From positions 1 to 32,104 of IMG/VR virus record IMGVR_UViG_3300014914_000023: a stretch of 32,104 bases of DNA; one strand, written 5' to 3'. Below are positions 846-32,104 of the stretch, piece after piece; position 1 is the stretch's first letter, and every line of letters starts with the position of its first letter. Under the pieces are notes generated by a model, which worked only from the letters and a program-made list of their open reading frames with translations, did no database searches and was not told the origin of the DNA. Both the position numbers and the translations under genes were made by a program. The stretch comes from a virus.

Positions 846-1223
846 TCAGCCTCCTTTTCTCCAGTCAGTTTCTGGATCGTCGATCCCTAACTCCTCGTAG
901 ATAACGTCTGCAACCTCGGCAAGGACACGGTCACCTTCCCTCACTTTACCAAAACAACACACCTGCCCATTCGGTTGGTTATAAACAATTAAGAACCCTC
1001 GCGGACACATCTTTTCGAGAGCTTTAAGGATGTCTTCGACCATGCCCTCATACAGTTTAGGCACTACCTCAAGGCCGATTTGGTTAGCCGAAAGCCCGAT
1101 GCCATTGTTTTTGAACATGGTACTTAGCATGTCGATCACAAGGCCGGGCTGTGGAACTGTTTCACTTGTTACCGGCAGCGTCGGGTTCGTCAATACGCTA
1201 TGCGGGTACGGCACGATCTTCAT
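846..1223 (-). CDS. Truncated peptide deformylase fused in frame to unrelated sequence
   Basis: Peptide deformylase removes the formyl group from nascent proteins and is carried by several phages. Residues 1-52 (start MKIVPYPHS at 1223, AGGGGA upstream) match the deformylase N-terminus, ending in motif I as GIGLSANQIG at residues 41-50. Everything after that is missing. There is no EGCLS-type motif II and no HExDH motif III, so all three metal ligands are absent and the enzyme cannot be active in the usual way. Residues 61-125 (from MVEDILKALEKM) look like a separate small phage protein joined in frame. The start overlaps the preceding gene by 26 bases. An upstream start at 1292 would add 23 residues but lies deep in that gene. 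Deformylase identity of the first part is fairly sure; the role of the whole is unknown. Confidence 0.7.
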   Translation of the reverse strand: MKIVPYPHSVLTNPTLPVTSETVPQPGLVIDMLSTMFKNNGIGLSANQIGLEVVPKLYEGMVEDILKALEKMCPRGFLIVYNQPNGQVCCFGKVREGDRVLAEVADVIYEELGIDDPETDWRKGG

Positions 1224-3734: not shown

Positions 3735-4100
3735 CTATGTATTTGCATTGAAGAACTCCTTCCACTCCTTTTGAAGCTGCTCTACGTCATACACACAGGT
3801 CGCAAAACCGCCCATAAGTGCTATCTTTTCAAGGAAATCAGCCTGATTTGAGCCATCTTTTAGCCTATTTGGTAGCCTTTTGCACTCAACAGCGATAAAT
3901 GTCCCGTAGGGCCCTACCCCAACAATGTCGCTCATGCCGGGCTTATTGAAGCGAATCATACGTTCTCGCGTTTTTCCGTCACGTTTGCGCGTGTAGGTAG
4001 ATCGCACAGCTCCGGTATTGTTCCTCCATACATAGGCATTTGAGGCTGTTAAATAGGCAAGACAGGCGTTAACCAGGGCAGTCTCGTTAGCTTTGGGCAT
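3735..4100 (-). CDS. VRR-NUC family nuclease
   Basis: This 121-residue protein is about the normal size for a stand-alone VRR-NUC domain, a PD-(D/E)XK fold related to Holliday-junction resolvases and FAN1. The motifs run in order: an N-terminal Glu (NETALV), the WRNNTGAV segment at 25-32, GMSDIVGV with the catalytic Asp at 58, and VECK with Glu72 and Lys74, followed by Gln86. It should cut branched or structured DNA, here probably replication or recombination intermediates before packaging. It overlaps the replication initiator gene by 14 bases, so the two are translated together. Confidence 0.85.
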   Translation of the reverse strand: MPKANETALVNACLAYLTASNAYVWRNNTGAVRSTYTRKRDGKTRERMIRFNKPGMSDIVGVGPYGTFIAVECKRLPNRLKDGSNQADFLEKIALMGGFATCVYDVEQLQKEWKEFFNANT

Positions 4101-5130
4101 TGTTTTCCTTCAATATTTTGACCTGTTCCCAGAACACCTTGGGGTGAGGATCGTGGCCATTGGCTATTTTTTCAAAGATTTGTGTTATAGGTTCAACCCC
4201 ATGCTTCTTGATTGTTCTAGCCAATTGCTCTTGAAGCTCATCCTTTGGTTTTGTTGTATTGAATGTTTTTCTATGCATCCATTCACAAATTCTCTCAGCG
4301 AGGTTATCCACAGCTTTTCCACTGCTTGTGGATTTCTTTTCATTGGAGCCACTATGTGCCTGTGCCTGCTTCTGTGCCTGCTCCTGTGCCTGTGCCTGTG
4401 CCTGGTGAGGCACTCGTCCCGAAGGGGTCTGCAAGGGGTCGGCAACCCCTTCTGATGATTCAGAAAAGGGTATTCCTAAATGGCTAGCCCAGAAAGCTTT
4501 ACGATCATTCGCAGCTTTTTTCGCGTTACAAGAGGCGCATAAAACCTGCAAATTATCGAATTCTGTCTTTCCACCCAAAATCTTAGCCAAAATATGATCC
4601 ATTTGGAGGTCTTTAACCCCTTGGCAACCCCTACAAGACCCCTTGTCACGCATCATCACAGCGCTTACTAGCTGCCGTGAAATCTTCTCGTGATTCGGGC
4701 CTTTGGGGTATACCGGGGCATCCAGATGGTACACATCCTTGTAGCGATCGATAAACAACTCCTTGTAGCTCTCATGGGTAACCTGTTCGATCATCCGAAC
4801 AACGGCTATCCGTTGGTTATCTTTAACACTCAGCTCCTCGCCTATTTGGAAACGAGCCATTTCGGGGATGAAGACGAACTCCTCATCCTCATCATAGTAG
4901 GCGTATCCAGCGCCCTCTAGCGTTTGCAGAGCGTTATATACCTGATCAAGAGCCATGCCTACCTCATGGCATATCAGCGTCAGCGGTAGGTAGTAAAGGC
5001 CGATCATATTGGCAGACGGACAGGTAATCAGATAGAACGCTACGCGCTGCACATCTGGCCCCGACTTGCGTAAAAACTTCCCTGTTTTACCTGTCCAGAA
5101 CTGTGGGGCAACACGGGAGTAATTCCTCAT
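4087..5130 (-). CDS. Replication initiator-like protein with internal HNH domain
   Basis: This is 347 residues. The N-terminal 135 residues (MRNYSRVAPQFWTGKTGK to RYKDVYHL) match the winged-helix domain of replication initiator/DnaD-like proteins common in proteobacterial phages, which bind the origin and recruit the host helicase. Next comes a complete HNH endonuclease domain: CRGC at 166-169, DH at 178-179, GG and N193, and CASC at 198-201, with the CxxC pairs binding zinc. A Gln-Ala run (about 242-258) links to a C-terminal helical domain (281-347). The HNH insertion is unusual. The gene sits after the recombination genes, overlapping both neighbours by a few bases. In lambda O the origin lies inside the initiator gene; the repeat at 4355-4402 could play that part here. 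Confidence 0.75.
   Translation of the reverse strand: MRNYSRVAPQFWTGKTGKFLRKSGPDVQRVAFYLITCPSANMIGLYYLPLTLICHEVGMALDQVYNALQTLEGAGYAYYDEDEEFVFIPEMARFQIGEELSVKDNQRIAVVRMIEQVTHESYKELFIDRYKDVYHLDAPVYPKGPNHEKISRQLVSAVMMRDKGSCRGCQGVKDLQMDHILAKILGGKTEFDNLQVLCASCNAKKAANDRKAFWASHLGIPFSESSEGVADPLQTPSGRVPHQAQAQAQEQAQKQAQAHSGSNEKKSTSSGKAVDNLAERICEWMHRKTFNTTKPKDELQEQLARTIKKHGVEPITQIFEKIANGHDPHPKVFWEQVKILKENNAQS
4355..4402. repeat. Hexamer tandem repeat inside the initiator gene
   Basis: Eight 6-base units stand in phase, six of them exactly tgtgcc (starting 4355, 4361, 4373, 4385, 4391, 4397) and two variants (tgcttc, tgctcc). On the coding strand they give the Gln-Ala linker of the replication protein. 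The regular spacing inside an initiator gene is like iterons at a replication origin, but it may be only a low-complexity linker. Confidence 0.8.
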
Positions 5131-31939: not shown

Positions 31940-32104
31940 TGGACTAGCTTTCTCTTGGTATGCGTTGTAGTTTTGTGGCCGTTTTTGGATGCTTTCCTGC
32001 GGGGGGAGTGCGTCGTGATGGTCATCTCAAAATCACCATCGGACATGTGGTTCATATCACGGACATCTCGCCAGCCACAACAGTTCTTCATGGTGAATAT
32101 TGCA
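31936..32104 (-). CDS. terS: Terminase small subunit, C-terminal part (gene begins at the left end)
   Basis: The frame enters at the right edge and ends in TGA at 31938-31936. After AIFT it reads MKNCCGWRDVRDMNHMSDG and a basic tail (HSPRRKASKNGHKTTTHTK) that could contact DNA or the motor. Together with 1-264 it forms one uninterrupted gene of about 138 residues, with the ATG at 32091-32089 being the same internal Met as at 3-1. It should not be annotated as a separate gene starting at that Met. Confidence 0.85.
   Translation of the reverse strand, partial: AIFTMKNCCGWRDVRDMNHMSDGDFEMTITTHSPRRKASKNGHKTTTHTKRKLVQ
32089..32104. repeat. Terminal direct repeat, right copy
   Basis: This is identical to positions 1-16. 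It marks the point where the circular map closes inside the small-terminase gene. After removing one copy the genome is 32,088 bases. Confidence 0.9.

Follow-up and report, generated by a model that had tools for sequence, protein, structure and literature searches.

Similarity to peptide deformylases (PDFs) is found at the start of a minus-strand open reading frame (ORF), positions 846-1223 of the virus record IMGVR_UViG_3300014914_000023, and a different segment follows it in the same frame. This raises the question of what such a chimeric ORF encodes and how its two parts came to be joined. The window, i.e., the whole stretch of DNA that was analysed, is the entire record of 32,104 bases.

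Genomic Context and Expression Signals

Both ends of the record share a 16-base direct repeat (region of 1-264 and 31940-32104) and, when one copy is removed, the gene for the terminase small subunit reads through the join, with 138 codons; given the end repeat and the continuity of this frame, the record very probably represents a complete circular genome of 32,088 bases. The gene order over the join is the chimeric ORF, the gene at 310-843, the small terminase and the large terminase, the chimeric ORF belonging to a tightly packed operon that precedes the terminase genes. A tRNA-Trp (CCA) lies at 1644-1716 on the minus strand, just upstream of this operon. The genome also contains a second composite gene (4087-5130, minus strand), which comprises the start of a DnaD-like helicase loader (1-139), an HNH nuclease domain (approximately 150-215) and a Gln/Ala-rich repeat.

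The chimeric ORF has 125 codons (849-1223) with zero internal stops and terminates with the stop codon at 846-848. Its ATG at 1223 is preceded by the Shine-Dalgarno sequence AAGGGGAAC (-7.8 kcal/mol) and its start overlaps the upstream gene, located at 1198-1416; its 3′ end in turn supplies the Shine-Dalgarno sequence AAAGGAGG to the downstream gene (310-843). In the frame of the ORF both parts look like coding sequence: the codon score is 0.062 for the N-terminal part (residues 1-52; 1068-1223, minus strand), against -0.6 and -1.0 in the shifted frames, and 0.149 for the C-terminal part (residues 53-125; 849-1067, minus strand), against -0.5 and -1.0, while all the other five frames of both parts are negative. 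The other genes of the same genome have a mean score of 0.191 (sd 0.091), and the N-terminal part, which is a short stretch, lies about 1.4 sd below typical genes. Two candidate internal starts, GTG at 1064 and ATG at 1043, have a Shine-Dalgarno-like GAGG about 2 bases upstream; owing to this poor spacing, the C-terminal segment is not clearly a former separate gene.

The Deformylase-Like N-Terminal Part

An earlier note on this DNA had described the first 52 residues as a PDF start ending after motif I, and profile searches bear this out. Residues 2-52 match positions 3-54 of the 156 of Pfam PF01327 (E 3e-8, 33.8 bits, with a cut-off of 22.8), and the same part is matched by TIGR00079 of NCBIfam (1.7e-6) and by PHROG 2890 (4.3e-5), the three matches all ending between residues 52 and 55. 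With an HMM that we built on 38 viral PDFs, the score is 43.0 bits, and residues 1-52 align to positions 1-53 of the model, with nothing further. Likewise, when 79 viral PDFs were compared by tblastn with the whole window, nearly all of the best 60 matches ended at 1056-1077; among them, those of two PDFs (L015 and L040) extend past this point, weakly (28%). Pairwise scores with the N-terminal halves of three phage PDFs are 61-83, values equalled by none of 1000 shuffles.

According to the motif definitions taken from PMC5591237, motif I (G-phi-G-phi-A-A-x-Q) is present as GIGLSANQ at residues 41-48; the serine replacing the first alanine is shared with 3cpm_A and with viral PDFs whose motif II is intact. 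The score with the viral HMM indicates good preservation of motif I and of its helix. This part represents a piece of the PDF core; the full-length AlphaFold2 model has low confidence around motif I.

The Missing Catalytic Motifs and the C-Terminal Segment

The loss of motifs II and III, also claimed in the earlier note, is confirmed: motif II (EGCxS/EGCLS), which carries the metal-binding cysteine, is absent from the ORF, and no HExxH is found anywhere in it, motif III (HExDH) being the one that provides the two metal-binding histidines. As the cysteine and both histidines are missing, the product should be unable to hold the PDF metal and would therefore not deformylate; judging from the sequence, no working deformylase activity is expected. 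No second piece of a PDF was detected elsewhere in the record, either by a six-frame Pfam search or among the best 60 tblastn matches of the 79 viral PDFs; an intron, a split gene or a second exon were thus rejected. A frameshifted C-terminal half was also rejected, since the other frames of 849-1067 carry stops and no PDF motifs.

Residues 53-125 match no family at E <0.04 in Pfam, PHROGs, NCBIfam or PADLOC. They give nothing beyond chance against phage records and no match in IMG/VR contigs (8-mer scan) or GTDB genomes, and the single match of a degenerate pattern search was unrelated and due to chance. Extending the search in IMG/VR and GTDB genomes to the whole protein, the terminase and the portal did not retrieve relatives, with the limit that very close records may have been withheld from these searches. 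The segment does not resemble the missing half of the enzyme: it obtains no reported score with an HMM of the PDF C-terminal half, which 397 of 500 shuffles do obtain, and its pairwise alignment scores with PDFs equal those of shuffles. The possibility that the motif I helix had been duplicated within the protein was considered and rejected, the local score between the two parts (24) being matched by 11% of shuffles.

A single-sequence AlphaFold2 prediction for residues 54-125 (mean pLDDT 64) consists, counting residue 54 as 1, of a helix (4-19), two strands (23-29 and 35-41) and a second helix (46-59), and modelling the full-length protein (mean pLDDT 58) gives the same four elements. A helix-strand-strand-helix fold is thus predicted, with low to moderate confidence. 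This, together with the sharp boundary and with the lack of resemblance to the PDF C-terminal half, agrees with the proposal in the earlier note that a different helical/beta segment is joined in frame without a stop. No significant structural neighbours were found in BFVD and PDB, an absence that says little given the low confidence of the model; the loose neighbours in BFVD, none of them significant, are mostly uncharacterised phage proteins of 70-95 amino acids. Against MADS-box-like alpha-beta-beta-alpha domains, this low-confidence model reaches a Foldseek E of 0.1 at best, and VIA-align gives a Z of 4.5 with NRF1 (rmsd 4.5, 59 aligned) and of 3.8 with SRF (rmsd 4.8, 58 aligned).

Comparison with Viral Deformylase Loci

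Two scans of IMG/VR targeting motif I yielded 79 and 120 PDF loci. Of the 79 loci of the first scan, 78 have motif II and motif III, either as such or as close variants (e.g., ESCLS). In the remaining one, a PDF of another virus (L088:5001-5500), one in-frame stop occurs just before SCLS and is followed by HEVDH, suggesting either that a point mutation broke the gene or that the stop is recoded. The 120 loci of the second scan, which have a GLSANQIG-like motif I, are all PDFs running well past this motif: 110 extend beyond position 120 of the HMM and the other 10 reach the end of their contig. A tblastn search with the L013 PDF matched 166 phage records, 145 of them at a coverage of at least 80%, and coverage of the N-terminal region only was never observed in 50 matches sampled down the ranking. 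Overall, neither the chimeric architecture nor any relative with the same fusion, which the earlier note had suggested looking for, was found among the approximately 200 viral PDF loci examined, although very close records may have been withheld from these samples.

Origin of the Chimeric Gene

The reading that we favour, with fair rather than strong confidence, is that the gene arose by a deletion or an illegitimate recombination, which placed the first part of def in frame with a small protein of no recognised family and left a product devoid of deformylase activity. Such an event, which represents the simplest account of the join, would have deprived a phage def gene of its catalytic two-thirds, i.e., of everything beyond motif I, and connected what remained, the ribosome-binding site with the first 52 codons, to a putatively independently folding alpha-beta-beta-alpha protein of about 65-72 amino acids. 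The chimeric product would then be translated from the old def start, any function would reside in the C-terminal segment, and the PDF part would be a leftover leader. Against this reading, the searches retrieved no relative of either the phage or the C-terminal segment, and hence no unfused parents that would reveal the event directly.

Several other explanations were considered. The ORF may be a decaying pseudogene, in which the frame, after the deletion, ran into DNA that encodes no folded product, with both halves now free of selection; no PDF function is expected and residues 53-125 have no homologue in any collection searched, but the C-terminal part has a codon score near that of real genes and far above that of the other five frames, a plausible predicted fold and a tightly packed position in an operon, which make this reading rather unlikely. 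An artefact of assembly or of strain mixture, by which the metagenome assembly jumped over the middle of the def gene and its neighbour, would be compatible with a join for which no relative was found; however, the frame is kept across the join, which has a chance of 1/3, and the contig otherwise circularises, with terS reading over its ends, so that we regard it as unlikely. A single, highly divergent PDF that lost the motifs of its C-terminal half is the least probable case: a forced global alignment can set RGFLIV under EGCLSV and ETDW under HEIDH, but the first placement shifts with other inputs, as forced alignments would, the profile and shuffle tests are null, and helices are predicted where PDFs have strands.

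It is also conceivable, but quite unlikely, that the chimera is kept and functional, the PDF N-terminus still serving as a decoy, as a partner of the host PDF or as a folding scaffold. The preservation of motif I and of its helix and the persisting in-frame codon use of the N-terminal part point in this direction; a recent event, however, would also leave a preserved sequence, and the N-terminal part comprises a piece of the PDF core, predicted at low confidence around motif I. The more specific proposal that the N-terminal third of a deformylase, devoid of its catalytic site, was co-opted by the phage and now forms the functional front of a small new protein, for instance as a decoy or partner of the host deformylase, appears very improbable. 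A binding of the PDF N-terminus to the ribosome tunnel exit, suggested in the earlier note, is disfavoured as well, since the ribosome-binding element lies at the opposite end of the enzyme: in E. coli PDF it is the C-terminal helix alpha3 that binds the ribosome, and phage PDFs do not have this region anyway (PMC5591237).

Significance and Comparison with Known Systems

Under the favoured reading of a fusion by deletion or illegitimate recombination, the chimeric ORF would be a clean candidate for in-frame deletion as a source of chimeric small phage genes and, if kept by selection, it would indicate that one third of an enzyme can find a new use as a building block. It also illustrates how, on the basis of a short N-terminal family match, a phage gene may be mislabelled as "peptide deformylase", though all the metal ligands are absent.

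The chimeric ORF shares with the PDFs of phages and marine viruses (PF01327, PHROG 2890; e.g., Vp16 PDF and S-SSM7 PDF) the first 52 residues with motif I and the nature of a small phage gene; unlike them, it is devoid of the sequence that follows motif I, with all three metal ligands, and has an unrelated segment in its place. The def-fmt fusion of Exiguobacterium (PMC12690207) is similarly a deformylase gene joined in frame to another protein; however, that fusion retains a complete and active deformylase, whereas the chimeric ORF retains the N-terminal third only.
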